Source: a virus. From it: 28,408 nt of DNA. The DNA is taken from positions 60,748 to 89,155 of the IMG/VR virus record IMGVR_UViG_3300001472_000009; one strand, given 5' to 3'. Position numbers and translations under genes: made by a program. Below the pieces are notes generated by a model that was not told the origin of the DNA, ran no database searches, and saw only the letters and a program-made list of their open reading frames with translations. This document shows positions 1 through 28,408 of the stretch, piece after piece. Each line of letters opens with the position of its first letter. The stretch's first letter is position 1.

Positions 1-792
1 ATGTCCTCTGATTTTGAGATTAAGAAAGCAGAACAAGGTATTATCTATATCGATGAAATAGATAAGAAAGCTAAAAAGGGTGAAAGTATTTCTATCACTA
101 AAGATGTTAGTGGTGAAGGTGTTCAACAAGCCTTACTAAAAATTGTTGAAGGTACGGTTGTTCGTGTTCCGCCAGGTGGTGGAAGAAAACATCCCGGTGC
201 AGAAATGCTTGAAGTTGATACAAGCAAAATATTATTCATTGTTGGTGGTGCATTTGTAGGACTTGATAAAGTAATTAAACGAAGATTGAATGCTAATGGT
301 TCAATTGGTTTTGGTGCTAGAGTTATGTCACAAGACAACAATGATATGAAAGTATCCCAAGAAGTATTGCCAGAAGATGTAATTAAATATGGTATTATTC
401 CAGAATTTATGGGACGTTTTCCAATACTAGTAGGTATTAATGACTTAACAGAAATTGAGTTAAGCCGAATACTAACAGAGCCAAAGAATAATTTAACTGC
501 ACAATTTAAAAAGATTTTTAAACTAGACGGTGTAGATTTGAATTTTACTGAGGACGCAATAACAGAAATCTCTAAAATGGCAAAAACAAATAAGACAGGA
601 GCAAGAGGTCTTAGAAGTGTTTTAGAAAAGTCATTATTAAAACTACAATTCAAATTACCTAAGCTATCAAAGAATGCTGGCTTAACGTCTGTTGAAATTA
701 CTGGTGACTTTATCAAAAACAAATCAGATCCAATTTTGGTATTTAAGGATGTTGTAGAGGAAACAAAAAATATAAATGAAAAGAAACTTTAA
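1..792 (+). CDS. clpX: ATP-dependent Clp protease ATP-binding subunit ClpX, 3' part (cut by window edge)
   Basis: AAA+ unfoldase that feeds tagged proteins to ClpP. The visible 263 residues align throughout with the second half of bacterial ClpX. They contain Walker B IYIDEID (D18/E19), the RKH pore loop (62-64), the IGF ClpP-docking tripeptide (102-104), the arginine finger in GRFP (R139) and sensor 2 in GARGLR (R202). The first Met is probably internal, because in the family this point lies just before Walker B. The zinc-binding domain, Walker A and GYVG pore loop would lie upstream of the window. The gene overlaps infC by 17 nt and so heads an operon with two translation genes. Retention of RKH, IGF and the ATPase residues argues for a working unfoldase able to use host ClpP; that use is inference. 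Confidence 0.95.
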
Positions 793-1318
793 GGAAGAAG
801 GGCGAAAGCCTTTCGTCATTGCCAATCAACGTATTCGTGCAGACGAGTTACGTGTGGTAACAGACCAAGGTGAACAACTTGGTGTCATGCAAAAAGATGA
901 AGCACAACAAAAGGCTGATGCCGAAGGACTAGATTTAGTTCTGATTGTTCCTAATGCAAATCCTCCAGTAGCAAAGATTATTAGTATTAATAAATACAAC
1001 TACGAAATTAAAAAACGTGACAAAGAGAAGGCAAAATTAGCCAGACAAAGTTTAGTTGAAGTTAAAGAAGTTAAGTTTAGACCAGCTATAGGTGAGAACG
1101 ACCTAAAGATGAAACTTATGCAGGTTCAAAAGTTTATTGACAAAGGCAATAAAGTAAAAGTGACAATACAAATGAGAGGCAGAGAGAATTCTAAATCAAG
1201 TGAAGTTTTAGATTTCTTCAATTCCCAAATCTCTGAGTACTTAAGTAGTTTTAAGTATGACCTCCCTCTAAAAACTAATGGGAATAGAATAATAGGTATA
1301 GTAATAAAAAATGACTAG
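776..1318 (+). CDS. infC: Translation initiation factor IF-3
   Basis: IF-3 binds the 30S platform, keeps subunits apart and checks start codon and initiator tRNA. The 180-residue product has the full family length. It has an N-domain ([30 protein letters not shown]), a Lys-rich linker helix around residues 75-95, and a C-domain with VKEVKFRP, a KL...[11 protein letters not shown] stretch and the MRGREN turn typical of IF-3. The ATG lies inside the end of clpX, and a GAGGA Shine-Dalgarno sits at 757-761. The 3' end overlaps the bS21 gene by 8 nt (ATGACTAG), so translation is probably coupled. A host-like complete IF-3 is uncommon in phages. No key segment is missing, so a functional factor that competes with host IF-3 is plausible. 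Confidence 0.95.
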
Positions 1319-1586
1319 TTACAATAATAGTTATAAAAGCAGAAATAACAGAAATGACAGGAACGATTTTACACAAACAGGAAAATCAGGCCTAACAGTA
1401 CATGTAAGAGACGGACAATTCGAAAGAGCATTAAGAAAGTTCAAAAAGAAAGTCCAAGAACACGGCATTATACAAGAGGTGCGTGACAGAAAGGCTTATG
1501 TTAAACCAAGTGAAATTAAACGTAAAGCTAAGGACGCCGGCAAAAAGCGTTGGTACAGAAAAAGAAAAGAGAGTGAATTCCAATAA
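1311..1586 (+). CDS. rpsU: Small ribosomal subunit protein bS21 with N-terminal extension
   Basis: bS21 sits on the 30S platform beside the 16S rRNA 3' end and aids mRNA binding. Residues about 28-85 match bS21: VHVRDGQFERALRKFKKKV, then a turn, EVRDRKAYVKPSE and a very basic helix. At 91 residues it is longer than the roughly 70 of bacterial bS21. The extra part is an N-terminal tail of about 25 residues rich in Asn, Arg and Ser, likely disordered. The start codon overlaps the infC stop (ATGACTAG), and the gene ends 2 nt before a hairpin terminator. Phage-encoded bS21 is known from marine phages; its pairing with IF-3 in one operon is the notable part here. Confidence 0.92.
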   Translation: MTSYNNSYKSRNNRNDRNDFTQTGKSGLTVHVRDGQFERALRKFKKKVQEHGIIQEVRDRKAYVKPSEIKRKAKDAGKKRWYRKRKESEFQ

Positions 1587-1587
1587 A

Positions 1588-1611
1588 AAAGGGGAACCTA
1601 AGTCCCCCTTT
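1588..1611 (+). terminator. Hairpin terminator between convergent genes
   Basis: AAAGGGG (1588-1594) pairs with CCCCTTT (1605-1611) around a 10-nt loop just after the bS21 stop codon. The flanking A run and T run mean that it could stop transcription from both sides, which suits its place between the convergent bS21 gene and the minus-strand gene 1634-1951. Confidence 0.7.
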
Positions 1612-1633
1612 AAATATTAATGATTAGTTTTTA

Positions 1634-1951
1634 TTAGAACAAATGATTATCAGAGAATTCTTCAAAAATTGGTTGACTATCTGTAAATGCAGACATTTGA
1701 GAACCGATATCGGTTTCAATCGCAGTCATAGTTTCGTTATTTGGGTAAACAACGGTAACCATGCCTTCAAATTTATCAGTAGTCAATTCTTCTTTATATT
1801 TTGTAGCATCGTTCAAGTCTATGCCGTTATCAGAAAGAATTGTTCTCATAAGGGTATAGTATGAATCGTAGTTATTCTCAGAAATCAGTTGTGCATTATC
1901 ATCATATTGTTTTACAATATGTGGATAAAATACTTTAGTTTCTTTAATCAT
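1634..1951 (-). CDS. Hypothetical phage protein (105 aa), late-transcribed
   Basis: I do not recognise the family. The acidic 105-residue product begins MIKETKVFYPHIV and has no membrane segment, signal peptide or Cys motif. A consensus AGGAGG Shine-Dalgarno (complement of 1961-1966) lies 9 nt before the ATG. A GATAAATA late-type promoter lies at 1991-1998 on the same strand. It stands alone as a minus-strand gene between two plus-strand operons and ends at the shared hairpin at 1588-1611. The strong ribosome site and late promoter suggest abundant late expression, for example a virion or assembly protein, but no sequence feature shows the role. Confidence 0.75.
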   Translation of the reverse strand: MIKETKVFYPHIVKQYDDNAQLISENNYDSYYTLMRTILSDNGIDLNDATKYKEELTTDKFEGMVTVVYPNNETMTAIETDIGSQMSAFTDSQPIFEEFSDNHLF

Positions 1952-1990
1952 AATAGGTGGCCTCCTAAAAATACTGTTTGATTATATACT

Positions 1991-1998
1991 TATTTATC
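1991..1998 (-). promoter_or_regulatory. Late-type promoter (GATAAATA), minus strand
   Basis: The complement of TATTTATC reads GATAAATA, matching the T4 late -10 element TATAAATA except for the first base. By T4 spacing, transcription would start near 1985, giving a ~34-nt leader before the ATG at 1951. Confidence 0.65.
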
Positions 1999-2021
1999 AA
2001 AAAACATAGAAGGATATTAAA

Positions 2022-2267
2022 TTGACCATAGATTTAGACAAATTATCATTAAGAGAACTGCAACAAGAAAGCACTAGAGCATTGCTTACGCAGGACGGTA
2101 CTAGTGGTGGTATATCAAAATATAACAAAAAAGCTAATCATAATAGTCAACTTTGGTACAAAGCAGTCCTAGAAGACTATATTGAGAAATATGGCGGTCT
2201 TCCTTGTGATGCAGGACCTTCGAAGGGAATTGTACTTTTTTCAGAAAAACTTGAGAAAAAGACTTGA
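2022..2267 (+). CDS. Hypothetical phage protein (81 aa), TTG start
   Basis: A small soluble protein of unknown function. The likely start is TTG at 2022, since an AGAAGGA ribosome site (2008-2014) is well placed and no ATG fits. The sequence opens with a short acidic helix (DLDKLSLRELQQES) and later has a WYKAVLEDYIEKYGGLP segment typical of compact phage helical proteins. No catalytic motif or Cys pair is present. The stop codon TGA is embedded in the TTGACA box of the next promoter, so the gene ends where the hsp20 transcription unit begins. I saw no clear plus-strand promoter in the short gap upstream. Confidence 0.65.
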   Translation: MTIDLDKLSLRELQQESTRALLTQDGTSGGISKYNKKANHNSQLWYKAVLEDYIEKYGGLPCDAGPSKGIVLFSEKLEKKT

Positions 2268-2292
2268 CATTTCTACCATTAATGATTATATT
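2264..2292 (+). promoter_or_regulatory. Sigma70-type promoter upstream of hsp20
   Basis: TTGACA (2264-2269), a 17-nt spacer and TATATT (2287-2292). Perfect -35 box and optimal spacing; suits host RNA polymerase early in infection. Confidence 0.75.
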
Positions 2293-2313
2293 ATAATATG
2301 TACATATATTATG

Positions 2314-2321
2314 TATAAATA
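2314..2321 (+). promoter_or_regulatory. Late-type promoter (TATAAATA) upstream of hsp20
   Basis: An exact T4 late octamer, downstream of the sigma70-type promoter. The expected start is near 2327, so hsp20 appears to have both an early and a late transcript. Confidence 0.7.
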
Positions 2322-2324
2322 ACT

Positions 2325-2353
2325 ATGTAGATTGCTTTAGATAGGATCTACAT
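2325..2353 (+). other. Leader hairpin in hsp20 5' UTR
   Basis: ATGTAGAT (2325-2332) and ATCTACAT (2346-2353) form a perfect 8-bp stem around a 13-nt loop. It lies at the 5' end predicted for the late transcript and about 20 nt before the Shine-Dalgarno, which it does not cover. Confidence 0.55.
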
Positions 2354-2385
2354 TTAAATCAACTTGCTTAACAAAGGAGTAAACA

Positions 2386-2823
2386 ATGACAAACGGACTA
2401 TCTATTTTTAACCAGTTACGACCTGTAACTGTAGGCTTTGACAACATGTTTGACCATTTCGAATCAATGTTCGATGGAAACGGCCCAACATTTCAAACAC
2501 AAGTAAACTTCCCACCTTACAACATAGTAAAAACAGGTGATTTCACTTATGATGTAGAACTGGCACTTGCTGGTTTCTCAAAAGATGATATTACAGTTGA
2601 CTATGCTGATAACATCTTATCTGTTAAATCAATCAAAAAAGATGAGAAGAAAGAAGAAGGCGTTCTTCATAGAGGTATCTCTAAGAGAATGTTTTCTAAA
2701 TCTTTCACTATCGCAGATGATGTTGAAGTAAAAGGTGCTGAGTTGAAGGACGGGTTACTAAAAGTATCTTTAGAACGTATCGTTCCAGAAGGTAAAAAGC
2801 CTCGTAATATTGAAATCTCATAG
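2386..2823 (+). CDS. hsp20: Small heat shock protein, Hsp20/IbpA family
   Basis: An ATP-independent holdase that binds unfolding proteins. The 145-residue product matches IbpA-type sHsps along its whole length. It has an N-terminal arm with GFDNMFDHFESMF, an alpha-crystallin domain from about residue 42 (PPYNIVKTGD, VELALAGFSKDDI, LSVKS, HRGISKRMFSKSF, GLLKVSLER) and a C-terminal I-x-I anchor (IEI) just before the end. A strong AAAGGAG site precedes the ATG. Hsp20 is a near-universal gene of T4-like marine phages. Its double promoter (sigma70-type and late) and leader hairpin suggest expression through most of infection, together with clpX and clpS as a proteostasis set. Confidence 0.96.
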   Translation: MTNGLSIFNQLRPVTVGFDNMFDHFESMFDGNGPTFQTQVNFPPYNIVKTGDFTYDVELALAGFSKDDITVDYADNILSVKSIKKDEKKEEGVLHRGISKRMFSKSFTIADDVEVKGAELKDGLLKVSLERIVPEGKKPRNIEIS

Positions 2824-2838
2824 TAGAAAATATTACTT

Positions 2839-2846
2839 CATAAATA
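2839..2846 (+). promoter_or_regulatory. Late-type promoter (CATAAATA)
   Basis: A T4-late-like octamer with C at the first position, 16 nt after the hsp20 stop. The expected start near 2852 falls inside the hairpin that follows. It would serve the sulfotransferase-like gene at 2890. Confidence 0.5.
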
Positions 2847-2871
2847 GAAGCGAGGGCTAGTTCCTCGCTTC
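2847..2871 (+). terminator. 9-bp hairpin after hsp20, possible terminator
   Basis: GAAGCGAGG (2847-2855) pairs perfectly with CCTCGCTTC (2863-2871) around a 7-nt loop. There is no T run after it, so it may act as an attenuator or processing site. A transcript begun at the overlapping late promoter would lose most of the left arm. Confidence 0.55.
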
Positions 2872-2889
2872 CTCATGGAGTAATATAAA

Positions 2890-3747
2890 ATGAATAAACA
2901 TACATCTGTATGGTGTCAACCCAGGTCAGGGTCGTCTGCATACTGTAATCATCTAAAAAAAACTAGAAAAGTATTTTCTGACTCTGCACAAGAGTTTATG
3001 TCTGCCTCTCAATTTTGGCCTATGTTGCAAGAACCAGGAACAGACTCAGCAGACAATTTTAAAATGTCAATAGAAAGTTTTCCATACGATAACGAATTAA
3101 GAATTAAACTTAAACATGACGCATATAAGATTTATGATAATATAAAAAATACACATAATCCAAAGTGGTTATGGACAGATTGGAAACTGACTGATAAAGG
3201 TATTAAGCCTTATTATACTAGAAGTATACCAAGACATTATTTAGAAGACACATTCCCTTCAAGACCATGGGCACAAGAACTACTCACAAAATCAAAAGTA
3301 CCAGAAGTAATAAAGTTATATAATTATGATAATTTTCAATTTGAAGATATTGCATATGATACAAATCATCATTTATTAATTAGAGAGCCGTTAGATAACG
3401 CATTAAGTCAGATTGTTGCATATATAACTATGGTATGGCATCAAGAAAGTAATGATGAAAATAAAGTAAGAATTAAAGAAACAATTAGTTTTAAGCCTAT
3501 AAAAAATGACCCTCATAAGAAAACACCATATCAAATAGCAGAGTATTGTTTTAAATCTAATATTGATATGTTGGAACAGTTGGGGGACAAAGTAGATGTT
3601 ATAGCAAAGTATGAGGATATGGAATTTAAAAATAATCGTTATAAGAAAATGCATACATTACGAGAGAAATTAGCAGTGTGTTCAGATTTACATTTCTTAG
3701 ACGATATGAGAAATAACTATAATAAAAGACTTGATTCATTACTCTAA
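2890..3747 (+). CDS. Sulfotransferase-like protein
   Basis: Probably transfers sulfate from PAPS to an unknown acceptor. Near the N-terminus a strand is followed by QPRSGSSAYCNHL (PRSGSS at 11-16), the form of the 5'-phosphosulfate-binding loop of sulfotransferases. Later, LLIREPLDNALSQ gives R165 and S173, eight residues apart as in the 3'-phosphate-binding motif of that superfamily. The rest of the 285 residues is divergent and Lys-rich, and I recognise no closer family. A GGAG ribosome site precedes the ATG. An APS-kinase-like gene and an HxGH nucleotidyltransferase at 9863-10751 could supply PAPS, which strengthens the call. A structural role for the fold without catalysis cannot be ruled out. 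Confidence 0.6.
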   Translation: MNKHTSVWCQPRSGSSAYCNHLKKTRKVFSDSAQEFMSASQFWPMLQEPGTDSADNFKMSIESFPYDNELRIKLKHDAYKIYDNIKNTHNPKWLWTDWKLTDKGIKPYYTRSIPRHYLEDTFPSRPWAQELLTKSKVPEVIKLYNYDNFQFEDIAYDTNHHLLIREPLDNALSQIVAYITMVWHQESNDENKVRIKETISFKPIKNDPHKKTPYQIAEYCFKSNIDMLEQLGDKVDVIAKYEDMEFKNNRYKKMHTLREKLAVCSDLHFLDDMRNNYNKRLDSLL

Positions 3748-3759
3748 AAATGATATAAT
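3731..3759 (+). promoter_or_regulatory. Sigma70-type promoter upstream of clpS
   Basis: TTGATT (3731-3736), a 17-nt spacer and TATAAT (3754-3759) with an extended -10 TGA. It lies partly inside the 3' end of the preceding gene. Confidence 0.65.
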
Positions 3760-3762
3760 TCA

Positions 3763-3770: not shown

Positions 3771-3791
3771 GTTTAGACAGTGAGAAAATAA

Positions 3792-4106: not shown

Positions 4107-4119
4107 CCAGAGACTCGAC

Positions 4120-5725: not shown

Positions 5726-6781
5726 ATGTTTAGAAAACTACTAATGACAGTTGCATTGACATTTGGTCTCGCAACATCGGCATTGGCTGATTATACATTG
5801 ATTGTCCCACAGGAACCTGGTAAAGGTACTTCTGTATGGGGAGAAATCATTGCTAAGAACTTAGAAAAGTTCATCGGTGAACCAGTCGTGGTTCGTCATA
5901 TTCCAGGCGCAAGAGATATTCCTGGTTTCAATAAATTCCACAACAGTCTTCGTTTTGATGACAAAACAATCATGGTTGCACATGGTGGTAACGGTGTATC
6001 ATACTTACTAGATAAAGTTGATTACAATTATTTCGATTATGAACTAATTGGTTCAATGAACAACGATATCGTTCTTGGTAAGCATGAAGGCGCAAGTGAA
6101 AAAGAAGACAATTGGACAATCGCAGGCGGATCAGGTTTCGAACCAGATGCGGCGGCAGTTGCAATGTTAATCTGTGGTCCAACAGGTAATAACTCAGTTG
6201 ACGATTATCTAGCATGTTGGAGAGAACGTGTAACATGGGTAAACGGCGTATCAGGCGGTGAAAAGCGTCTTGGTTTTAAAAACGGCGAATTCGATGTAGC
6301 ACGTGAATCACCAGCGGCATGGAAACGTTTCTACGAAGGTATTGAAGGTAATGAATTGTGGTTCACACACGGTATCCTAGACTTAGAAAATAATGTACAA
6401 ATGGCAGATCCAAACTTCCCTAACACACAGTTTGAGGATGTATACGAGTCACTATGGGGCGAAAGACCATCAGGTGATTTATATCAAGCATATAAACTAA
6501 CTCGTAACTGGCGTGATGCTATTCAAAAGTCACTTTGGATGAACAAAGGTAACCCAAATGCGGCAAAAGTTAAAGCGGCTGTGACTGAAATGATTAATGA
6601 TCCAGTTGCAAGTGCAGAGATTTATGCTAAGACTGGTGTTTACCCTTGGATTCAAGATGGACCAGCTTTATTGGCGGCTCTGAAATCTTTGATTACAGAA
6701 AAAGCACTTAAAGATGCGGTTCGTTGGAATCAAGAAGCATACGGCTTCCCATCAATCTATAAGCCTGAACTTTTAGACTAA
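5726..6781 (+). CDS. tctC: Tripartite tricarboxylate transporter, periplasmic binding protein TctC
   Basis: Captures a carboxylate substrate in the periplasm and hands it to TctA. A signal peptide is clear: basic MFRKLL, a hydrophobic stretch, then ATSALA with cleavage before DYTLIVP. The mature part follows the Bug/TctC pattern, with an early glycine-rich ligand loop (VPQEPGKGTSVWGEIIAKNLEKFIGEPVV cut here into its two lobes' start) and V.H.PGARDIPGFN after it. The 351 residues are slightly longer than the usual ~320. It sits 10 nt before tctA behind a strong AAAGGAG site. The ligand cannot be told from sequence. Production in the host implies export through host Sec. The late promoter upstream suggests expression late rather than early. 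Confidence 0.88.
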   Translation: MFRKLLMTVALTFGLATSALADYTLIVPQEPGKGTSVWGEIIAKNLEKFIGEPVVVRHIPGARDIPGFNKFHNSLRFDDKTIMVAHGGNGVSYLLDKVDYNYFDYELIGSMNNDIVLGKHEGASEKEDNWTIAGGSGFEPDAAAVAMLICGPTGNNSVDDYLACWRERVTWVNGVSGGEKRLGFKNGEFDVARESPAAWKRFYEGIEGNELWFTHGILDLENNVQMADPNFPNTQFEDVYESLWGERPSGDLYQAYKLTRNWRDAIQKSLWMNKGNPNAAKVKAAVTEMINDPVASAEIYAKTGVYPWIQDGPALLAALKSLITEKALKDAVRWNQEAYGFPSIYKPELLD

Positions 6782-6791
6782 GGATATAGCT

Positions 6792-8300
6792 ATGGAATAT
6801 GTTATCTGGGCTTTGATTGGCACCTGTTATGGAATGCTAGTTGGTATTATACCTATCGCAGGTGTAACTACCGCCCTGATAACTGTCTTTAGCATGGGAG
6901 CATACTTTATGGCCGACCCCTATTTGGGGTTGGTCTTTTTAACGGCTATCGTGGCAAGTTGTGCCAGTGCAGATAGTTACACAAGTATTCTTACTGGTAT
7001 TCCAGGCGCAAGTACAACTGCGGCATGTGTTATTGATGGTTATCCTATGGCGAAGAAAGGTCAATCGGCCAGGGCAATGGGAATTGCTATTACAGATTCA
7101 ACATTTAATGGTGTAGTATTTGCGGCTCTAACCTTTTTCTTACTTCCTTATTATGGGAAAGTAATTGTATTATTTGGTCGTCCAGAATTTCTGGGCTTCA
7201 TGTTAATGGCACTTGCATGTGTAGGTTTCGTTGCAAGTAAGAATGTTTTCTTAAGTATCTGTGCAATCATATTTGGTTTAGCAGTAGGTATGGTAGGTGA
7301 AGATGTTGTAAGTAATCCTAGATTAACATTTGGTTGGGAATATTTACAAAATGGAATTGGCATGGTTGTTTTACTATCAGGCTTATTCGGTGTACCAGAA
7401 TTATTAGATGGATTTAGAAGAAAATTAAAATCAGCGGCACCACCAATGGAAGGAAATTACTTTGATGGACTGAAACAAGGCTTTGGTGATTGCAGAAGAC
7501 ATTGGAGAGATATGATAAGAGGTGGACTGATTGGTTTCGTTACTGGTTTATTACCAGGTGTAGGAGGAGCAGTAGGTGACTTCTTAGCATACGGTGCCAC
7601 AAAAGCCGCACATAAAGACAAAGACCAAGAAGTACCTTTTGGATCAGGAAATCCAGTAGGGTTATTAGGCTGTGAAGGAGCCAACAATGCACAGAAAGTA
7701 TCTAGTATGATACCTGCTTGTTTGTTTGGTATTCCAGCGGCACCATTTGCGGCTATGGTTATGGCAATCTGTATGTACTTTGGTATGGAGATTGGTACTC
7801 CTAGTTTGTTAGATGATATTCAATTTACAAACAGTTTAGCATTTGGTTATATTTTTGGAACTGTCGGTGTAGCACTATTAAGTATATTTTTATACAAATG
7901 GATTCTTAAAATATTAGAAGTTCCTTTCTGGATTTATGCGACATTTATTTTAGCAGTAATTGTTTATGCTAATATGCAATACACAGGTGGTTGGGAAGAT
8001 TTAGCCTTACTAGCTATCTTAAGTGCTATTGGCGTTGTATGTAAAACATACAATATTAGTAGACCAGCAATTCTTGTTGCATATGTTGTTGCATTTAAAA
8101 TCGATGAATATTTTTGGGGTACACTACAGTTGTATGGTTACAAACAATGGAAACCAGGATTGAGTTCGATGTCAGACTTTAGATGGTTTGATTTATTCAA
8201 CATTTATAATCATCCTATTTTTCTTGTATGTATTCTTATAGCTTTAGGTATATTCATAAATAGTCTTGTAAGAAAAGATAAAGGACTCGATTATACATGA
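6792..8300 (+). CDS. tctA: Tripartite tricarboxylate transporter, large membrane subunit TctA
   Basis: The inner-membrane channel subunit, 502 residues (normal length), with about ten or more hydrophobic segments. Two family signatures are visible: SILTGIPGAST followed by VIDGYPMAKKGQSARAMG near residues 64-100, and GLLPGVGGAVGDFLAY, then GCEGANNAQK and IPACLFGIPAAP in the second half. It starts 10 nt after tctC and ends in a 4-nt ATGA overlap with the oxygenase gene. The small subunit TctB (four membrane segments) is not found next to it or elsewhere in the window. The pair may borrow host TctB or work without it. Transporter genes of this kind act as auxiliary metabolic genes in phage; the substrate is unknown. 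Confidence 0.93.
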   Translation: MEYVIWALIGTCYGMLVGIIPIAGVTTALITVFSMGAYFMADPYLGLVFLTAIVASCASADSYTSILTGIPGASTTAACVIDGYPMAKKGQSARAMGIAITDSTFNGVVFAALTFFLLPYYGKVIVLFGRPEFLGFMLMALACVGFVASKNVFLSICAIIFGLAVGMVGEDVVSNPRLTFGWEYLQNGIGMVVLLSGLFGVPELLDGFRRKLKSAAPPMEGNYFDGLKQGFGDCRRHWRDMIRGGLIGFVTGLLPGVGGAVGDFLAYGATKAAHKDKDQEVPFGSGNPVGLLGCEGANNAQKVSSMIPACLFGIPAAPFAAMVMAICMYFGMEIGTPSLLDDIQFTNSLAFGYIFGTVGVALLSIFLYKWILKILEVPFWIYATFILAVIVYANMQYTGGWEDLALLAILSAIGVVCKTYNISRPAILVAYVVAFKIDEYFWGTLQLYGYKQWKPGLSSMSDFRWFDLFNIYNHPIFLVCILIALGIFINSLVRKDKGLDYT

Positions 8301-12170: not shown

Positions 12171-13613
12171 ATGGACAGTAAAACTTTCTGCATTGCACCA
12201 TGGCACGATGTTCATATTATAACAGACGGGACATTTAAAGGATGTTGCGTTATGAACCATGGCGAAGTGGGAGGTAGACTACTGACTAACGGTGTTGTTC
12301 ATACAGTATCAGACAGCGGTGTTAACGGTGCTATGAATTCTGATACAAGTAAAGAACTAAGATTAGATATGCTACAAGGCAAATGGCATACTAATTGTAC
12401 AAGATGCAAAAATGAAGAATCATCTGGCATGCGTAGTATGAGACAATTATACGGCGACAGATGGCAAGACTTCACACAAGTTGAAGCAGAGAAAATTACT
12501 AATAAAGAAACTGGTGAAATACCAGCAGACCATAAACCTTTCTATTATGACATTCAGTTAGGTAATCTATGTAATCTTAAATGTAGAATATGTAATCCAT
12601 TAGTTAGTTCAGCTTGGATACCTGATTATATGAAAATGATGAGATTAGGTAATAAAGCAAAGATTAAAGTAAGAGGTGGTAAAAAACCATTCTCTATTGA
12701 TATTGAACATATCAAAGGTAAAAAGTATGATATCTCACCTAACCCATTTGCATGGGCAGAATCAGATGAGTTTTGGGAACAAATGTCTTCTATCAAAGGA
12801 GAAATTGACCATCTATATTTGATTGGTGGTGAACCAATGATGATACATCGGCACTTTAAGTTTTTGGAAGAATGTGTTGAGAGTGGTGATGCAAGTCATA
12901 TTACATTACAGTATGATACTAACTTAACAAATATCCCTGAAAAAGTTATGGGATATTGGTCTCATTTCAAATCTTTAATGATTGGTTTTAGTATTGACGG
13001 TATGGGCCCAGAGTTAGAATATATGAGACACCCTGTGAAGTGGCCACATATTCTTAAGAATATAAACAGAGTAGAAGAATTTGCAAAGAACAATGATAAT
13101 GTCAAGCTAAATGATTCTATTACAATTAGTACATATAATGTACTGCATATACTTGACTTCATTGAATGGAAAGTAAAAGCAGGAAAAAACGATTATAATT
13201 ATCTATGGCAATGGCATGATGAGAACTTTTGTGCCCATCCATTACATGGTCCTGATTTTCTATGTGTTAAAACAATGCCTCTAAGTGCTAAGAAGTATGT
13301 AACGCAGAGATATTATGAATGGCGTGATAAGATGATAGAATGGTGTGACAGTATTGACGAGTATTCAGGAAAACGTAAACCAGAAGATATCAAACAAGCT
13401 ATAATCAAATTTGTTGATAGATGGGTAGAGTTCATCAATCAAGAAAATTGGTCACATAGAGTATGGAAATTTTGGGAATATACAAACGATTTAGATACTG
13501 TTCGAGGTGAGAACTTCACAGAAATATTCCCTGAACTTGCTAAGATTATGAACGATTATCCAAAGAAACCTCATTGGTTTCATATCCCTACAAATACATA
13601 TAAAACAGAATAA
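12171..13613 (+). CDS. Radical SAM protein with N-terminal twitch/SPASM-like Cys region
   Basis: Uses a 4Fe-4S cluster to split SAM for radical chemistry. The cluster motif C134-x3-C138-x2-C141 lies in LGNLCNLKCRICNP, followed by LYLIGGEPMM (GGEP motif) and TNLT further on. Before it, FCIAPW, GCC (25-26) and CTRC (76-79) give extra cysteines as in twitch/SPASM proteins, which often bind auxiliary clusters but usually at the C-terminus. The 480 residues end in a Trp-rich helical part. Similar twitch-type proteins occur widely in marine T4-like phages with unknown substrate. The start codon follows the HIT stop directly. It closes the operon; a late promoter begins 10 nt after it. Confidence 0.88.
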   Translation: MDSKTFCIAPWHDVHIITDGTFKGCCVMNHGEVGGRLLTNGVVHTVSDSGVNGAMNSDTSKELRLDMLQGKWHTNCTRCKNEESSGMRSMRQLYGDRWQDFTQVEAEKITNKETGEIPADHKPFYYDIQLGNLCNLKCRICNPLVSSAWIPDYMKMMRLGNKAKIKVRGGKKPFSIDIEHIKGKKYDISPNPFAWAESDEFWEQMSSIKGEIDHLYLIGGEPMMIHRHFKFLEECVESGDASHITLQYDTNLTNIPEKVMGYWSHFKSLMIGFSIDGMGPELEYMRHPVKWPHILKNINRVEEFAKNNDNVKLNDSITISTYNVLHILDFIEWKVKAGKNDYNYLWQWHDENFCAHPLHGPDFLCVKTMPLSAKKYVTQRYYEWRDKMIEWCDSIDEYSGKRKPEDIKQAIIKFVDRWVEFINQENWSHRVWKFWEYTNDLDTVRGENFTEIFPELAKIMNDYPKKPHWFHIPTNTYKTE

Positions 13614-19417: not shown

Positions 19418-19814
19418 GACTTTACTTACAATAGAAAAAGCACTACATAGTAGACTGAAAGCGGAAGATATATCTCCCGTTAGTGTACAAGTATTCCCAT
19501 CATGGGAAGAGGGCTTTAAAGGACACAAAAGAAAAAGAGGTGTCTATGTTATTTTTGATGAAGAAGAAATGATTTATGTAGGGAAGGGCTTTTTCTCTGC
19601 ACGTAATAAAAGTCATTATGACAAAGCAACAAATAAAGCAAATTATAATCCAAAAGGCTGGATATGGTTTAAAGAAAATTATAATTATAGTATTGACAAC
19701 TGGCACCTATTTCTGATAGAATTGAGTAGTGAAATAGATATAACTTTTATGGAAGGCGCATTGATTAAAGATTTGCGTCCAATCGCAAACGATGAGGTAT
19801 ACATTGACAGGTAA
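19410..19814 (+). CDS. GIY-YIG domain protein, probable nuclease
   Basis: The core RGVYVIFDEEEMIYVGKG has G-V-Y and Y-V-G about ten residues apart as in the GIY-YIG domain. FSARNKSH supplies the catalytic Arg, MEGALIKDLRP the metal-binding Glu, and N in PIAND closes the pattern. There is no extra DNA-binding domain, so it is closer to a stand-alone domain than to a homing enzyme. The start is uncertain: ATG 19410 forms the ATGACTAA overlap common in this window, while ATG 19392 adds six residues. It overlaps uvsE by 23 nt. Possible roles are host DNA breakdown or repair beside UvsE. Confidence 0.75.
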   Translation: MTKTLLTIEKALHSRLKAEDISPVSVQVFPSWEEGFKGHKRKRGVYVIFDEEEMIYVGKGFFSARNKSHYDKATNKANYNPKGWIWFKENYNYSIDNWHLFLIELSSEIDITFMEGALIKDLRPIANDEVYIDR

Positions 19815-20817
19815 AGTTGGGTTTGCATGTAAATTCATGCATGAAAATCAAAGTCTCAAACCTAAAGAGTTGAAGGAGATTCAACAGCCACTAAACTTTC
19901 GTGGTACAACTATTAGATGGTTACGAGAACATAAGGAACAATCACAAGAAAAAGTTTACGAACTTGTAGAACATAACTTGAATGCTACAGAAAATCTTAT
20001 TGACTACGTAAGCACACTTCCATTGGAGCAACGTATGTTGCGACTAGGTAGTGATATGTTACCTGCATATACAGAAGTTAATCATCAGCATCTAACAAAA
20101 ACTAATTATATCACTAATTTGATAGCAGATAGACTAAATACAATTGGTGAGAAGGCTAGGGCAAACAATGTTCGTTTATCTATGCACCCTGGACAATTTA
20201 CTGTTCTTGCATCAGACAGACCTGATGTTGTAGAAAATAGTATAAAGGAGTTCGAATACCATGCAGATATCATCAGGTGGATGGGCTATGGCAAGTCGTT
20301 TCAAGATTTCAAATGCAACGTCCATATATCGGGTAGAAAAGGTCCAGAAGGCATCAAAGCAATCCTCCCAAGATTATCCCAAGAAGCGAGAAACACAATC
20401 ACAATCGAAAACGAAGAAATGTCGTGGGGTCTCGATTCTTGCTTAGAACTAGAAAAAGATGTAGCACTAGTGCTAGACATACATCATCACTGGATACACA
20501 GTGCAGGTGAATACATAGGAATAAACGATGATAGAGTTAAACGAGTTATTGATAGTTGGCGGGGTGTTAGGCCTGCTATGCATTATAGTGTTAGTCGGGA
20601 AGATTATATCCCGGAGCATCGACAAGATGTTAGACCAGACTTTCAAAAACTTTTAGAGACTGGACACAAAAAAGCTAAACTACGGGCTCACAGTGACTAT
20701 ATGTGGAATGATGCAGTAAATGAATGGGCAGGTACATTCCGTAAAGATTTCGATATCATGGTAGAAGCCAAATGTAAAAATTTAGCAAGTATTCCTTTTG
20801 AGGAGAGTACAAGATGA
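19792..20817 (+). CDS. uvsE: UV damage endonuclease UvsE/UvdE
   Basis: Nicks DNA 5' of UV photoproducts. The 341 residues form a TIM-barrel with the family's metal-binding segments: RLSMHPGQFTVL, CNVHISG, ITIENEEMSWG, LVLDIHHHWIH, AMHYSVSR, LRAHSDYMW and DIMVEAKCK. The N-terminal KVGFACK strand also fits. Length is close to bacterial UvsE. The ATG is inside the end of the GIY-YIG gene, and the stop overlaps the next small gene by 4 nt. Helps repair sunlight damage, as expected for a surface-water phage, and is probably expressed from the sigma70-type promoter at 19069. Confidence 0.93.
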   Translation: MRYTLTGKVGFACKFMHENQSLKPKELKEIQQPLNFRGTTIRWLREHKEQSQEKVYELVEHNLNATENLIDYVSTLPLEQRMLRLGSDMLPAYTEVNHQHLTKTNYITNLIADRLNTIGEKARANNVRLSMHPGQFTVLASDRPDVVENSIKEFEYHADIIRWMGYGKSFQDFKCNVHISGRKGPEGIKAILPRLSQEARNTITIENEEMSWGLDSCLELEKDVALVLDIHHHWIHSAGEYIGINDDRVKRVIDSWRGVRPAMHYSVSREDYIPEHRQDVRPDFQKLLETGHKKAKLRAHSDYMWNDAVNEWAGTFRKDFDIMVEAKCKNLASIPFEESTR

Positions 20818-23090: not shown

Positions 23091-23627
23091 ATGCCAACAC
23101 ATGCAACAATCGACTTAGAAACATTAAGTACGAAACCTGAGGCAGTACTATTGACTATAGGTGCAATTAAGTTTGACCCTTTTACAAATGATCCGCCTTA
23201 TAAAGAATTTTACTATAGAGCAAACGTGGATGAACAAACTGCTATGGGCAGACATGTTGAAGATGGAACGTTGCAATGGTGGTCAAGACAGGCTCCCGAA
23301 ATTGTTGAGGAAGCATTGTCAGATGAAAATAGACATTCAGTAAAAGATATTCTAATTAAATTAAACAAGTATCTTGTTGGGGTAGATAAGATTTGGTGTC
23401 AAGGACCAGTGTTTGATATTGCTATTTTAGAAAATTTATATAGACAATTAGGCTTACATTATAATTGGGCATTCTATAACATTAGGGATAGTAGAACATT
23501 GTTCAGTCTTATGCCAAGAGATCCTAGAAAAGATATATCTTTTGCCGCCCACAATGCATTAGAAGATTGTAGAATACAAAGTATTTGTGTACAGAAATCA
23601 CTAAGAAACTTAGGCGTTACTCAGTAA
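23091..23627 (+). CDS. DEDD-family 3'-5' exonuclease
   Basis: The acidic motifs are visible as ATIDLETLS (Exo I), WCQGPVFDIAILENLY (Exo II) and AAHNALEDCRIQS (Exo III with H), giving the DEDDh order. The pattern resembles the Rv2179c/T4 DexA-type group, which act on RNA or DNA 3' ends. The length of 178 suits a single domain without polymerase parts. It starts 2 nt after the dehydrogenase-like gene and its stop abuts that of the convergent gene on the minus strand (1 nt apart), leaving no space for a terminator hairpin. Confidence 0.87.
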   Translation: MPTHATIDLETLSTKPEAVLLTIGAIKFDPFTNDPPYKEFYYRANVDEQTAMGRHVEDGTLQWWSRQAPEIVEEALSDENRHSVKDILIKLNKYLVGVDKIWCQGPVFDIAILENLYRQLGLHYNWAFYNIRDSRTLFSLMPRDPRKDISFAAHNALEDCRIQSICVQKSLRNLGVTQ

Positions 23628-24110
23628 CTACCACCTGCCTTGGCCTTTACCTACAATCCAAACAATAAAAACAACAATGACTGATAGTCCTATCGCAAGA
23701 GATAAACCTATAATCCATTCTAAGATTTTTTGTTTTTTTTCTTCTGCGGCGTAGACTGCCGCTTTACGTTCACTACGCATTCGTGCTTCTATTCCAACAA
23801 TTTCTTTCCATGCCGAAGGTCCATAATATAAACTAATATGGGAACGTAATTCTTCACGCATTTCTTTTGCTTTTTGCTGGTGACCCCAAACTTCTAGGGC
23901 ATTTTGTTCTACTTTACTCGCTCCAAATAGTTTTTTAAACATAGGAGGATTTTCTGCTTGTCGATGTGCAAAGTCTAAATCACTCATTGACGTTGCCCAC
24001 GTTTGTAGGGTGCCTGCCATATCATGCAAACTTTTGCCTGTTTCTACTGCTGATTTGATGCCGCGATAGGCGGCTGTTGCCATACCAATGGCGGATACTG
24101 GATCAATCAT
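23628..24110 (-). CDS. Conserved phage protein with C-terminal membrane helix, late (160 aa)
   Basis: Starts MIDPVSAIGMATAAYRGIKS, has a long charged helical region and ends with one strong hydrophobic helix (EWIIGLSLAIGLSVIVVFIV) and a short basic tail. I recall this layout (a PVSAIGMATAAYRGIKSA opening) from T4-like marine phages, where it is uncharacterised and often near virion genes. A GGAGAGG site and a TATAAATA late promoter precede it on the minus strand. A tail-anchored virion or host-membrane protein is plausible. Confidence 0.7.
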   Translation of the reverse strand: MIDPVSAIGMATAAYRGIKSAVETGKSLHDMAGTLQTWATSMSDLDFAHRQAENPPMFKKLFGASKVEQNALEVWGHQQKAKEMREELRSHISLYYGPSAWKEIVGIEARMRSERKAAVYAAEEKKQKILEWIIGLSLAIGLSVIVVFIVWIVGKGQGRW

Positions 24111-24150: not shown

Positions 24151-24156
24151 AAAAAC

Positions 24157-25091: not shown

Positions 25092-25195
25092 GTAAAAAAC
25101 TATCAGCAAAAGGCAGAATTAGAAACATTAAAACTGCCGCAAAAAAGTTTAAAAGAAAATTATCTTTTAAAGCAAAGAAAAAAGCGGGTCAATAA
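25088..25195 (+). CDS. Very basic small protein (35 aa)
   Basis: A 35-codon frame of which about 40% is Lys or Arg: MSKKLSAKGRIRNIKTAAKK, then FKRKLSFKAKKKAGQ. Its ends match the overlap style of this region (ATGA in, TAATG out to acpS), and AATGGAGG precedes the ATG. The composition suggests nucleic-acid or ribosome binding. Not assignable further. Confidence 0.6.
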   Translation: MSKKLSAKGRIRNIKTAAKKFKRKLSFKAKKKAGQ

Positions 25196-25608
25196 TGCGA
25201 CATTCACTCAACACAAAAATTCATGGTATAGGTGTAGATATCGTTGAAGTAAAACGAATGAAAGATGCTATAGATAAACATGGCGATAAGTTTGCTATGA
25301 GAATTTTAAGCAAGTTAGAGCATGATAATTATATTGTGTCTCCAAATAAAGCACAGTATCTTGCAAAGTGTTGGGCGGTAAAAGAAGCCTTTGTAAAAGC
25401 AATAGGTACAGGCTTTAAAGGAAACTTTCTTTGGAAGAATATAACATATTTTTCTCCTGCAGGAAGTTTAGGATTAGGTCATCCTCAAGTTAGATATAGT
25501 GATGAAATCAAAAATGATTCATTAATGAATGGAAAAACTGTTCATCTAAGTGTAAGCGATGAACAATCAATAGTAATTGCGTATGTAACTATAGAGGCAA
25601 GAACATGA
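25195..25608 (+). CDS. acpS: Holo-[acyl-carrier-protein] synthase AcpS-like
   Basis: Transfers 4'-phosphopantetheine from CoA to apo-acyl-carrier protein. GIGVDIVEVKRM holds the Mg-binding Asp (D15). AKCWAVKEAFVKAIGTG has the KE..xKA pattern with E64 and K68. The final VHLSVSDEQSIVIAYVTIE strand pair matches the family except that Asp replaces the usual His after Ser. The 137 residues are close to bacterial AcpS, and the substrate ACP is not encoded here, so a host ACP is the likely partner. It starts on the last base of the preceding gene (TAATG) and overlaps the next by 4 nt. AcpS is rarely noted in phages. Confidence 0.88.
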   Translation: MRHSLNTKIHGIGVDIVEVKRMKDAIDKHGDKFAMRILSKLEHDNYIVSPNKAQYLAKCWAVKEAFVKAIGTGFKGNFLWKNITYFSPAGSLGLGHPQVRYSDEIKNDSLMNGKTVHLSVSDEQSIVIAYVTIEART

Positions 25609-25904
25609 CAGACAATATAATACAATTAAGCAAATATAAAAAAGACTTATGGGAACCACCTAGTACAGTGGAAGATGAAGTTGAAGAAATTACAATAGAA
25701 TTCATTCAACAAGCTATCGAACTACTAAATGAATATGGTATGGATCCATATGATACAAGTCTTGGAAATGAAATGGTTGCGGTATCAATGTTGTTTAGAG
25801 CAATGCTTGACAGACAATACGGTAGAGAGAATCATTTACAAACTATGTTAGATGTAATGACTAAAGATATGAAAACAACAGGAGAGGGTAAAGATGATGA
25901 ATAA
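25605..25904 (+). CDS. Hypothetical phage protein (99 aa)
   Basis: An acidic helical protein, starting MTDNIIQLSKYKKDLWEPPS, with VEDEVEEITIEFIQQAIELL in the middle and MVAVSMLFRAMLDRQYGREN later. No known motif. Overlaps acpS by 4 nt and the GreA-like gene by 11 nt. Its composition is like that of small T4-like phage proteins that bind host proteins, but this is not a function call. Confidence 0.65.
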   Translation: MTDNIIQLSKYKKDLWEPPSTVEDEVEEITIEFIQQAIELLNEYGMDPYDTSLGNEMVAVSMLFRAMLDRQYGRENHLQTMLDVMTKDMKTTGEGKDDE

Positions 25905-26448
25905 TACTATTATGGGATTTAAGGTACAACAAACTGATAAATATGCAAGTCAAAATAATAAAAGTGAGAATAAAAATAATATGGACTTAATAAGTGCAAA
26001 AGGCAGAGACGATTTATACAGGAAGATTTTAGAAACACAAGATAAGAGACCTGAAATTACTGACCGTATTCAAGCCGCAAGACTACAAGGTGGCTTAGAA
26101 GAAAATGAGGAACTTTTGGTTGCATTGGAAGATATGCAACGAGTAGATATGGAAGTTCATAGATTACAACAGATGCTTGAAAAAGTTACTGTAATGGATC
26201 CACTCCCAAAAGGGAAGTATAAAAAAGTGTGTTTCGGTGCAACTGTAAAGATTGAAAACTGTGATACTGGCAAACAAATACAATATAAGATTGGTGGAGA
26301 ATTCGACTCAGATCCAAATAATGGCATCATTTCCTTCAAATCTCCTTTAGGAGCCGAGTTAATTGGTTCAGAAAAAGGGGATATTATCGCACTTATGCGA
26401 CCTGCAGGTGACATAGAGTACGAAGTACTTAGAATTTTTGTACCTTAA
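25894..26448 (+). CDS. GreA/GreB-like transcription factor with altered coiled-coil tip
   Basis: GreA enters the RNA polymerase secondary channel and stimulates cleavage of backtracked RNA. After about 30 extra N-terminal residues, residues 52-185 follow GreA: RPEITDRIQAARLQGGLEEN for the coiled coil, MLEKVTVMDP, then the C-domain with VCFGATVKI, YKIGGEFDSD, ISFKSPLGAELIGSEKGD and YEVLRI. At the tip E. coli has GDLKEN (D41, E44); here it is GGLEEN, so D41 is Gly67 while E44 is kept as E70. Loss of that Asp usually impairs cleavage. It may instead block or modify polymerase. The start could be ATG 25894 or 25897; GGAGAGGG lies upstream. Confidence 0.85.
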   Translation: MMNNTIMGFKVQQTDKYASQNNKSENKNNMDLISAKGRDDLYRKILETQDKRPEITDRIQAARLQGGLEENEELLVALEDMQRVDMEVHRLQQMLEKVTVMDPLPKGKYKKVCFGATVKIENCDTGKQIQYKIGGEFDSDPNNGIISFKSPLGAELIGSEKGDIIALMRPAGDIEYEVLRIFVP

Positions 26449-26452
26449 AAAC

Positions 26453-26480
26453 TTGACAAATCTGCGAATCATGTTATAGT
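26453..26480 (+). promoter_or_regulatory. Sigma70-type promoter upstream of sleB-like gene
   Basis: TTGACA (26453-26458), a 16-nt spacer and TATAGT (26475-26480) with TGT extended -10. Lies in the 64-nt gap after the GreA-like gene. Confidence 0.7.
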
Positions 26481-26512
26481 ATATACATAATCAAAAGAAA
26501 GAGGCAGTATAA

Positions 26513-27193
26513 ATGTTAAGATTTCTAAAGATGATGGGTAACGGTATTGTTACTTTAATGAATATAACTACCATAGGTGTATTAATGGCGTTCGCCGCCT
26601 TAGCTACAGGTACAACAATCATGTCAGATGAAACAAAACATGATGATTCTGTTGAGATAGTTATCCCTGTACAAATAGACCCAACATCACGTATTGATAT
26701 GGAATATTTCTTAATCGATCCTTATAAATTTAAAGATGAATTTTGTTTAGCACAAAATATCTTTTTTGAATCAAGTGTTGATAACAAAGCAGGAATGGCC
26801 GCAGTAGCAGACGTTGTTCTCAATCGTGTAAAACATTCTTACTATCCTAATACTATTTGTGAAGTAGTATATCAAGCTAAAATGAAAGAAAGCTGGAAAA
26901 CAAAACAGTTTCCTGATTTACAGGATAGTGAACGTAAGTATATTCCAGTTAAACACAGATGTCAATTTAGTTGGTACTGTGATGGTAAATCAGACGATAT
27001 TCCATTAGGCTCAGAGAATTGGGTTAAAGCACAGATGATTGCTTGGGACATTATGCACAATGATGGACTACGAGGTATCACAGAAGGTGCAACACACTAT
27101 CATGCTACATATGTTAAGCCACGTTGGGCTAGTCAACATAATATGGACTTAGTTGGTCGAATTGGTCTACACATTTTTTATCGTTGGAACTAA
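26513..27193 (+). CDS. SleB-type cell wall hydrolase with N-terminal membrane anchor
   Basis: A lytic-transglycosylase-like (Hydrolase_2) domain. Residues 16-35 form a hydrophobic helix after a basic start, a signal anchor. The domain begins at CLAQNIFFESS with the catalytic Glu86. MAAVADVVLNRV, Y..TICEVVYQ, RCQFSWYCDGK, GATHYHATYVKPRWA and VGRIGLHIFYRW then follow in family order. AGAGGC precedes the ATG. Unlike the GH19 endolysin it has a sigma70-type promoter and no late octamer, so it may be made early, acting on the wall from the membrane (local remodelling or superinfection control) rather than only at lysis. Confidence 0.88.
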   Translation: MLRFLKMMGNGIVTLMNITTIGVLMAFAALATGTTIMSDETKHDDSVEIVIPVQIDPTSRIDMEYFLIDPYKFKDEFCLAQNIFFESSVDNKAGMAAVADVVLNRVKHSYYPNTICEVVYQAKMKESWKTKQFPDLQDSERKYIPVKHRCQFSWYCDGKSDDIPLGSENWVKAQMIAWDIMHNDGLRGITEGATHYHATYVKPRWASQHNMDLVGRIGLHIFYRWN

Positions 27194-27200
27194 AAAACTC

Positions 27201-27229
27201 TTGCAATTTTATCTAATCTGATGTATACT
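27201..27229 (+). promoter_or_regulatory. Sigma70-type promoter
   Basis: TTGCAA (27201-27206), a 17-nt spacer and TATACT (27224-27229). Leader of about 78 nt before the GTG start at 27314. Confidence 0.6.
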
Positions 27230-27313
27230 AATATCAGTTTAAATGAAAACTAAACACCGAAATGTGATTAAACTAAAACGCAATTTTGTCAACTACAGAA
27301 GAGGATTTATGAA

Positions 27314-27562
27314 GTGGCAAACAAAATTCAACGAGGTCGTAAGCCTCGTAAAATGTCTGCATCGATGGAGGAAGCAGTTAGTCTTCTGAAACCGATGAAA
27401 GGTCGTAGTGGGCTGTATGGTTGTTTTAGTAAAAACGACAACGGCGAGTACACTGAGGTAGGTGTATATAATTACTCAACCAAGAAATATGTAATATTTC
27501 GAAGTGAGCATGTTGATGGTACAGCCGTCGATGAAATTAGGGAAGTTATCAAGGGGCTTTAG
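27314..27562 (+). CDS. Small basic phage protein (82 aa), GTG start
   Basis: The GTG at 27314 has GAGGA (27301-27305) 8 nt upstream, better than any ATG in the frame. The product opens with a basic patch MANKIQRGRKPRKMS, then a helix MEEAVSLLKPMKGR and strand-rich GLYGCFSKNDNGEYTEVGVYNY and YVIFRSEHVDG. A small nucleic-acid-binding protein would fit, but no family is recognised. It ends inside a hairpin whose left arm starts before the stop codon. Confidence 0.65.
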   Translation: MANKIQRGRKPRKMSASMEEAVSLLKPMKGRSGLYGCFSKNDNGEYTEVGVYNYSTKKYVIFRSEHVDGTAVDEIREVIKGL

Positions 27563-27569
27563 GCCCTTT
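27551..27569 (+). terminator. Short hairpin at the end of the 27314 gene
   Basis: AAGGGGC (27551-27557) pairs with GCCCTTT (27563-27569) around TTTAG, which contains the stop codon. Only a weak T run follows, so termination is probably partial and guaC may be read through. Confidence 0.5.
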
Positions 27570-27590
27570 GATTACTATTAAGGTAGCTAA

Positions 27591-28408
27591 ATGCATATTG
27601 AGAATGAAATAAAATTAAACTACGATGATGTTCTAATTAGACCTAAACGTAGTACCTTAGGTTCACGTAAAGCAGTTGATTTAGAACGTGGATTTACTTT
27701 CCGTAACTACAAACCATACGTATCACCCGATGTATTACCAGATGGATATCCAGTAGTACAAGAACAATATAGACACTATCGTGGTACACCTATTATGGCA
27801 AGTAACATGGACGGTGTTGGGACATTTGAAATGGCAGATGAGTTAGCTGAACAAAATATCATGACTTGCTTAGTTAAAACTTATTCAACTAATCAGCTTG
27901 TTAGTTTTTTTGATGGTGATATAGATAGTAAAAGAACAAACTATGTAGCTTATTCAATGGGCATCACTGAAAAAGATGAACAAAAATTTAGATTAGTTTA
28001 TGAACAAGCACCTGGTATTAAGTATGTTTGTATTGATGTTGCAAACGGATATTCAGAAAGATTTACTGATTTCGTAAGAGAGTTTAGAAGTCACTATCCA
28101 AATGTTGTTATAATTGCTGGTAACGTAGTTACTGCGGATCAAACACAAGAATTAATTTTGAATGGGGCAGATGTTGTTAAAGTTGGCATCGGTCCTGGTA
28201 GTGTATGCACTACTAGAATACAAACTGGTGTGGGCTATCCTCAACTTTCGGCTGTCATTGAATGTGCAGATGCGGCTCATGGCCTTGGTGGACATATTAT
28301 TGCTGATGGTGGGTGTAACTGCCCTGGAGATATAGCAAAGGCATTTGCTGGTGGCGCCGATTATGTAATGTTAGGAGGTATGTTAGCAGGACATGATGAA
28401 GGTGGTGG
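27591..28408 (+). CDS. guaC: GMP reductase (5' part, cut by window edge)
   Basis: Reduces GMP to IMP with NADPH. The visible 272 codons match GuaC: MHIENEIKLNYDDVLIRPKR at the start, MASNMDGVGTFEMA, VCIDVANGYSERF, IIAGNVVT, VKVGIGPGSVCTTR with the catalytic Cys at 206, GVGYPQLSAVIECADAAHG and DGGCNCPGD. Compared with E. coli GuaC (Cys186) there are about 20 extra residues near positions 41-63 (between FTFRNYK and YRGTPIMA). An AAGG site precedes the ATG. Purine salvage genes help a phage balance nucleotides; the active-site match suggests a working enzyme. The stop lies past the window. Confidence 0.94.
   Translation, partial: MHIENEIKLNYDDVLIRPKRSTLGSRKAVDLERGFTFRNYKPYVSPDVLPDGYPVVQEQYRHYRGTPIMASNMDGVGTFEMADELAEQNIMTCLVKTYSTNQLVSFFDGDIDSKRTNYVAYSMGITEKDEQKFRLVYEQAPGIKYVCIDVANGYSERFTDFVREFRSHYPNVVIIAGNVVTADQTQELILNGADVVKVGIGPGSVCTTRIQTGVGYPQLSAVIECADAAHGLGGHIIADGGCNCPGDIAKAFAGGADYVMLGGMLAGHDEGG

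Follow-up and report, generated by a model that had tools for sequence, protein, structure and literature searches.

Why does a stretch of phage DNA contain not a single GCWGC (GCAGC or GCTGC) when GCSGC (GCGGC or GCCGC) is plentiful in it? The stretch, referred to here as the window, is 28,408 b long and comprises bases 60,748 to 89,155 of the 89,155-b IMG/VR virus record IMGVR_UViG_3300001472_000009 (G000), the source of which is a marine T4-like jumbo phage. The results presented below indicate that restriction pressure is very probably the cause of the site loss, and the footprint left by the surviving sites makes a modification at GG/CC of the phage DNA likely. With a probability of roughly two in three, this modification is a 7-deazaguanine placed by a DpdA-like transglycosylase, which is encoded by a 342,607-b relative (G001).

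No GCWGC was found in the window, compared with 20.7 ± 4.5 copies in 100 dinucleotide shuffles, and GCSGC was enriched (30 copies versus 6.7 ± 2.7 expected). Of all 5-mers, GCAGC/GCTGC was also avoided most strongly in the window (0 versus 16.2 by a maximal-order Markov expectation). A shuffle of synonymous codons in the window genes, which retains all proteins and the pooled codon usage, predicted 23.2 ± 2.4 copies of GCWGC, the lowest count among 500 shuffles being 15. The first codon of the 26 Ala-Ala pairs is GCG (16) or GCC (10) and never GCA or GCT; before non-Ala codons, Ala is encoded by GCA (260), GCT (101), GCC (35), and GCG (21), so that GCA and GCT account for 361 of 417. The codon-shuffle expectation and the Ala-Ala codon use thus show that the avoidance of GCWGC is real and is made via synonymous choice, and the roughly 5-fold excess of GCSGC mirrors this recoding. 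A sequence-only reading of the window had noticed the absence of GCWGC, the frequent occurrence of GCGGC and GCCGC, and about 25 Ala-Ala pairs that all begin with GCG or GCC. These observations were borne out, and the gap is larger than was claimed. A general depletion of pentamers of the same composition, against which that reading had advised checking, was not seen: the majority of the 30 such pentamers were near expectation, and the remaining ones with strongly reduced counts (ACGCG, CGCGA, AGCGC, GCGCA, and CGACG) are, or contain, other avoided words. The relevant features of the window are as follows.

1 to 28408, no strand assigned: region with 0 copies of GCWGC, also without any GATC, GCGC, or CGCG copies lacking an overlapping GG/CC
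5726 to 6781, plus strand: tctC-like gene with 6 GCSGC sites and 0 GCWGC
6149 to 6156, plus strand: GCGGCGGC in the Ala run of the tctC-like gene, two overlapping GCGGC (sites 6149 and 6152) where GCWGC is expected
6792 to 8300, plus strand: tctA-like gene with 6 GCSGC sites and 0 GCWGC
19792 to 20817, plus strand: UvsE-type endonuclease gene, the anchor for finding the relative G001 (85% DNA identity)
23544 to 24074, no strand assigned: convergent gene pair (second gene on the minus strand) with five GCSGC sites, both strands being affected

The search with UvsE led to G001, which runs collinear with G000 and is about 88% identical to it at the DNA level. G000 matches only the region from 228 to 319 kb of G001, about a quarter of the phage, and G001 is used here as a stand-in. 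GCWGC is absent from all 89,155 b of G000 (54.6 by Markov expectation) and from all 342,607 b of G001 (208 by Markov expectation). In the G001 genes, the codon-preserving shuffle predicts 309 ± 9 copies, and GCG or GCC is the first codon in 343 of the 343 Ala-Ala pairs. Among more distant UvsE relatives, G003, G006, and G002 have GCWGC near expectation. Clades were compared in loci of 9.5 kb surrounding the DpdA-like gene: neither GCWGC nor GATC without GG occurs in any locus of the window clade (L154 to L168, L186, L187, L189, L192, and L194), and both are present in every sister-clade locus. The comparison with related phages, which had likewise been advised, therefore places the gap in G001 and the window clade and not in the sister clades. 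The sister-clade loci L177, L179 to L182, and L185 contain 40 to 50 GCWGC per ~9.5 kb (0 in the window clade and 6 to 18 in the other sisters), apparently a reverse bias in a close relative.

GCWGC is not the only word that has been lost. In G000, all 77 copies of GATC are found as GGATC or GATCC, all 23 copies of GCGC and all 6 of CGCG likewise have a GG/CC neighbour, and there are no copies of AAGCTT, AGATCT, TGATCA, or TCTAGA. The same holds for the 295 GATC copies of G001, all of which are GGATC or GATCC, and for its 91 GCGC and 31 CGCG copies, all with an edge GG/CC. A ranking of words in G001 showed that CAATTG, CAGCTG, CTGCAG, GTGCAC, CGTACG, GAGCTC, CTGAAG, CGACG, and GCAAGC are almost nil unless touched by GG/CC, in which case they occur in roughly normal numbers. 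The A/T-ended words AAGCTT, AGATCT, and TGATCA, in which no edge GG/CC overlap is possible, are at zero. Given as observed/expected copies on both strands of G001, the counts without GG versus with an edge GG were 0/1669 versus 590/684 for GATC, 0/158 versus 62/75 for CGCG, 0/231 versus 182/117 for GCGC, 0/176 versus 42/95 for CAATTG, 0/96 versus 32/41 for CTGCAG, 0/126 versus 42/54 for CTGAAG, 0/67 versus 22/37 for GTGCAC, and 0/41 versus 32/22 for CAGCTG. As a guard against circularity, depleted words were picked in one half of G001 and tested in the other, where they reached 85/1916 (0.044) without an edge GG/CC and 561/753 (0.745) with one. Six other edge dinucleotides (AG, GA, CG, GC, AC, and CA) had no such effect.

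The exemption is also polar. C..G-edged sites, which hold the first G of GG, were rescued to 0.77, and longer G..C-edged sites, which hold only its second G, to 0.27; the short G..C sites GATC and GCGC were an exception to this polarity, being rescued to 0.96. In the relatives G003, G006, G010, and G011, the exemption extends to both GG and GA (the GR rule, R being a purine). This polarity and the GR rule point to a G that precedes another G (or a purine) as the modified base. Since many unrelated site-like words share one exemption, DNA modification at GG/CC is the simplest reading. Base modification had not been considered in the sequence-only reading, which was right about the GCWGC gap but framed it too narrowly as a single site; about a dozen other words are gone, most of them with a GG/CC exemption. 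Its proposal that sites were lost to escape host restriction fits best, because the absence is absolute, concerns both strands, and was reached by synonymous recoding, and because many palindromic or Type IIS-like words were lost together while the GCWGC loss is limited to one clade. When the host was sought through TctA in 84,980 genomes, the closest bacterial relatives were only about 30% identical.

In the mechanism that we propose, the phage would chemically modify the first G of 5'-GG-3' (of 5'-G-purine-3' in G003, G006, G010, and G011), and a host nuclease would be unable to cut a site overlapping the modified dinucleotide. Sites without that dinucleotide would stay lethal and would be removed by synonymous change. 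The base would be of the 7-deazaguanine type, made by FolE, QueD, QueE, and perhaps a QueC-like protein, and a divergent transglycosylase with the tRNA guanine transglycosylase (TGT) fold, the DpdA-like protein, would exchange it into DNA. A nearby GT4-fold glycosyltransferase would perhaps enlarge the modified base, although glycosylation is a tentative suggestion. The candidate genes in G001 are listed below, including a small open reading frame (ORF) with similarity to methyltransferases.

40003 to 40590: QueC-like PP-loop protein (PHROG 1550, 3.8e-10; PF06508, 8.2e-6)
63455 to 64000: small NPPY methyltransferase-like ORF beside the DpdA-like gene (PHROG 799 "DNA methyltransferase," 2.2e-30)
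64800 to 66341: DpdA-like protein of 513 amino acids with TGT-like motifs
69348 to 70430: GT4-fold glycosyltransferase of 360 amino acids
70523 to 71200: FolE (PF01227, 2.6e-46)
71202 to 72098: QueE (PHROG, 2.8e-52)
228547 to 228993: QueD (PHROG, 1.8e-38)

FolE, QueD, and QueE are thus all encoded by G001, and QueD is also present in G000 (477 to 923). The QueC-like protein is a PP-loop protein with a QueC-like C terminus and a weak match to PF06508 (8.2e-6); it has been cautioned that singleton QueC proteins of phages may be unrelated (PMC6884629). It lies in a minus-strand run (G001 40003 to 45042) with AMP-binding and sulfotransferase-like proteins, possibly a decoration or surface pathway. 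Genome profile searches with PF00145, PF01702, and PF06508 missed these enzymes in G001, and the DpdA-like gene was located via its DSGG motif when the ORFs beside the methylase-like ORF were read. The AlphaFold model of the DpdA-like protein (pLDDT 81.8, pTM 0.84) has as its best PDB folds the archaeosine TGT 1j2b (6.5e-6) and mouse QTRT1/2 (6.1e-5), and its matches in BFVD include a "tRNA guanine transglycosylase" of phage Motura and a protein of phage nt-1. The motif DSGG[YFW]Q was found in 73 of the 73 relatives sampled and FD..AS in 71 of 73; DSGGxQ and FD..AS presumably hold the two catalytic Asp residues of TGT. The 513-amino-acid protein is therefore predicted to be TGT-like by fold and not by sequence, and it is called DpdA-like rather than DpdA. 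For the 360-amino-acid protein, the model (pLDDT 75.6) has the fold of GT4-type retaining glycosyltransferases (BshA and MshA; E about 1e-7). The gene order DpdA-like, glycosyltransferase, FolE, QueE is preserved in G014, G003, G006, and G011.

The DpdA-like gene is widespread. At least 597 IMG/VR loci encode such a transglycosylase, and it is annotated as "hypothetical" in 13 cultured or deposited jumbo-phage records (the PA5oct/Paride group, Sinorhizobium phage Phosso, and Vibrio phage 2.275.O). According to the annotations, it is followed in Vibrio phage 2.275.O by a preQ0 reductase, a vitamin uptake transporter (COG1738), a queuosine gene, and FolE. Footprints of the GG or GR kind were detected in G001, G000, G014, G003, G006, G010, G011, and Phosso and, more weakly, in Paride. 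The DpdA-like gene and the glycosyltransferase are both present in G001, G014, G003, G006, G010, G011, and Phosso. In Vibrio phage 2.275.O, which combines the DpdA-like gene with the pathway but lacks this glycosyltransferase, few sites are depleted. No GG effect was seen in phiKZ and P-SSM2, which have no DpdA-like gene, and in CAjan, which has a known DpdA, context effects were weak and unclear at 60 kb. It is conceivable, though we hold it only tentatively, that a widespread jumbo-phage family uses a divergent transglycosylase to put glycosylated 7-deazaguanine at GG/GR, with the specificity legible in the surviving sites. In G011 (IMGVR_UViG_3300017917_002434, 269,730 b, L261 to L274), GCGC is missing altogether, with or without GG (0/~512 expected on both strands), and TGCA occurs 206 times versus 1781 expected.

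Several results weigh against the assignment of the footprint to a DpdA-like enzyme and 7-deazaguanine. The word from which the question arose does not follow the GG rule: GCWGC with an edge GG/CC occurs 0 times in G001 versus 79 expected and is thus not rescued. This fits a GCWGC enzyme that tolerates modification at the site edge, and it fits equally well a GCNGC enzyme for which only the GG/CC inside GCSGC is an obstacle. On either reading, modification at the site edge would not deter the enzyme, and all copies of GCWGC would have had to go. The specificity of TseI, ApeKI, or BbvI, which had been proposed for the host enzyme, is accordingly possible, but the GCNGC alternative accounts for the gap just as well. 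Pelagibacter phage HTVC008M, picked as a negative control, obeys the GG rule (without versus with GG: GATC, 0/622 versus 166/188; GTATAC, 0/79 versus 28/52; CTGCAG, 6/39 versus 16/18), and no DpdA was detected in it by a low-threshold profile search, nor any FolE, QueE, or QueD. Another enzyme can therefore make a GG footprint, and the footprint alone names no enzyme. As to the 513-amino-acid protein, it had no sequence match in Pfam, PHROG, or PDB, including the TGT profile PF01702, and none in a sequence search of CAjan and nt-1 (an hhalign comparison with one CAjan sequence gave an uninformative probability of 0.1), and the Foldseek TM-scores of its model against TGT were modest (0.35 to 0.40). 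The other pathway genes were not found in G000, which covers only the part matching 228 to 319 kb of G001, and were taken from G001. In PA5oct, which is close to Paride, Mom enzymes have also been predicted (PMC7824862), and they confound the picture there. In HTVC008M (KC465899, L396 to L398), AGATCT, AGTACT, GAATTC, TCATGA, TCTAGA, and more palindromes are wholly missing, and GATC, GTATAC, CTGCAG, and GCGC persist mainly with an edge GG/CC. A search for an enzyme common only to GG-type phages yielded a P-loop kinase and DUF6267, neither of which was convincing.

GG and CC are, moreover, one pair on two strands that the footprint cannot separate, a further point against a modified guanine. 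The protected letters could be CC on the complementary strand, marked by a cytosine methylase of short specificity or a hypermodification enzyme that acts on CC, with the 7-deazaguanine genes incidental or otherwise employed. CC-specific cytosine methylation of the CviPII-like kind exists, HTVC008M follows the rule without 7-deazaguanine genes and shares a P-loop kinase with G001, and the NPPY methyltransferase-like ORF adjoins the DpdA-like gene in G001. We nevertheless consider a modified CC unlikely, since no C5-methylase (PF00145) was found in G000, G001, G002, G003, or G006 and the GR rule in G003 and G006 is more easily reconciled with a single modified G than with a modified C. The NPPY ORF was demoted as the modifier because its distribution does not track the footprint: it is missing from the footprint-bearing G003, G006, G010, and G011 and present in the footprint-free P-SSM2. 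It is improbable that host restriction acted alone and that the GG-touched survivors reflect host methylases. A single GGATC methylase could explain why GATC is avoided except as GGATC, and several HTVC008M palindromes are at zero even with GG, but the exemption in G001 covers at least 10 unrelated words, palindromic or not, and each would need its own coincident methylase.

The sequence-only reading had also suggested that the phage carries its own cutter of host DNA. Nucleases that degrade host DNA are indeed found in phages, G001 has endonucleases of the PDDEXK and TnsA-like families, and nucleases for GCWGC, GATC, CTGCAG, and other sites that destroy host or rival DNA would leave the phage's own sites missing. 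However, a dozen specificities would require a dozen nucleases, the GCWGC loss is clade specific whereas the GG rule is wider, and a nonexhaustive nuclease search linked no nuclease to any site. With no PF00145 match in G000 or G001, and with a single ORF of G001 that resembles amino-methyltransferases, an own GCWGC cutter is unsupported, and we regard this explanation as very improbable. That mutational or codon bias made the gaps without any restriction enzyme is hardly credible. In its favour are the A+T richness of the genome and the low counts of some similarly composed words, but the codon-preserving shuffle predicts 23 copies in the window and 309 in G001 against none observed, the zeros hold without exception across 343 kb, the exemption requires a GG that overlaps the site, and sister clades of similar composition retain GCWGC.

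Modification of the phage DNA by a DpdA-like enzyme may be compared with known systems. Restriction-site avoidance in phage genomes is exemplified by T7, in which Type II sites are under-represented; here, in contrast, GCWGC and many other sites are wholly missing from 343 kb of sequence, and there is a dinucleotide exemption. The lost word is identical to, or part of, the recognition site of TseI, ApeKI, and BbvI (GCWGC or GCAGC) or of Fnu4HI-type enzymes (GCNGC), but neither an enzyme of this kind nor its methylase was found in the phage, with G001 as the stand-in. The modification context of CAjan is GA and GGC. Phage 7-deazaguanine DNA modification and the protection from restriction that it affords are established for 9g, CAjan, and nt-1 (Hutinet et al. 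2019, PMC6884629). Like these DpdA systems, G001 has FolE, QueD, QueE, a QueC-like protein, and a TGT-fold protein, and the modification, set in a short sequence context, would shield the DNA of the phage against restriction enzymes. Its transglycosylase, however, has no detectable sequence kinship to the CAjan DpdA, the modification would probably sit at GG (or GR), a glycosyltransferase is conserved alongside, and the modification is deduced from a genome-wide site footprint and not from chemistry. For dPreQ0 in Pseudomonas phages, a GA context is attributed to Olsen et al. 2023 in PMC11945000. Deazaguanine systems have been predicted in the jumbo phages Motura and PA5oct (Iyer et al. 2021, PMC7824862); PA5oct-group phages carry a homologous transglycosylase and that of Motura is a fold match, but that prediction concerned few jumbo phages, whereas at least 597 IMG/VR loci and a site specificity read from genomes are reported here. 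Synechococcus phage S-B43 is likewise a marine phage with a base modification at a dinucleotide motif and further decoration, but its 5-carboxymethylcytosine is made at a GC motif by a C5-methylase-type enzyme (PMC12783734), and G001 has no PF00145 match. The GG/GR context, the site-survival footprint, and the glycosyltransferase partner were not found in the literature searched, nor was a sugar-decorated 7-deazaguanine described there; their novelty is provisional.

Other genes were seen in the window and in G001. By eye, genes in the window resemble those for translation initiation factor IF-3 and ribosomal protein S21 (776 to 1586), and tctC/tctA-like transporter genes occupy 5726 to 8300. 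A radical-SAM-like gene is present in the window (12171 to 13613), and in G001 large ORFs bearing a CX3CX2C radical-SAM-like motif follow one another in runs of about a dozen (95597 to 106775 and 137439 to 146886; L099 to L102). The product of G001 221352 to 222386 (L106:1352-2386) resembles an amidinotransferase by eye and belongs to PHROG 25854, a family of unknown function.

If the proposed modification is correct, a bare metagenomic phage sequence would reveal both the restriction specificities of its hosts and the dinucleotide that the phage marks, with no culturing of either, and site words that are missing except beside one dinucleotide would provide a general test. GCWGC would then indicate against what sort of restriction enzyme the shield fails. 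For the jumbo phages, 7-deazaguanine protection would extend to a large and mostly unannotated enzyme family, possibly including a sugar-bearing variant.

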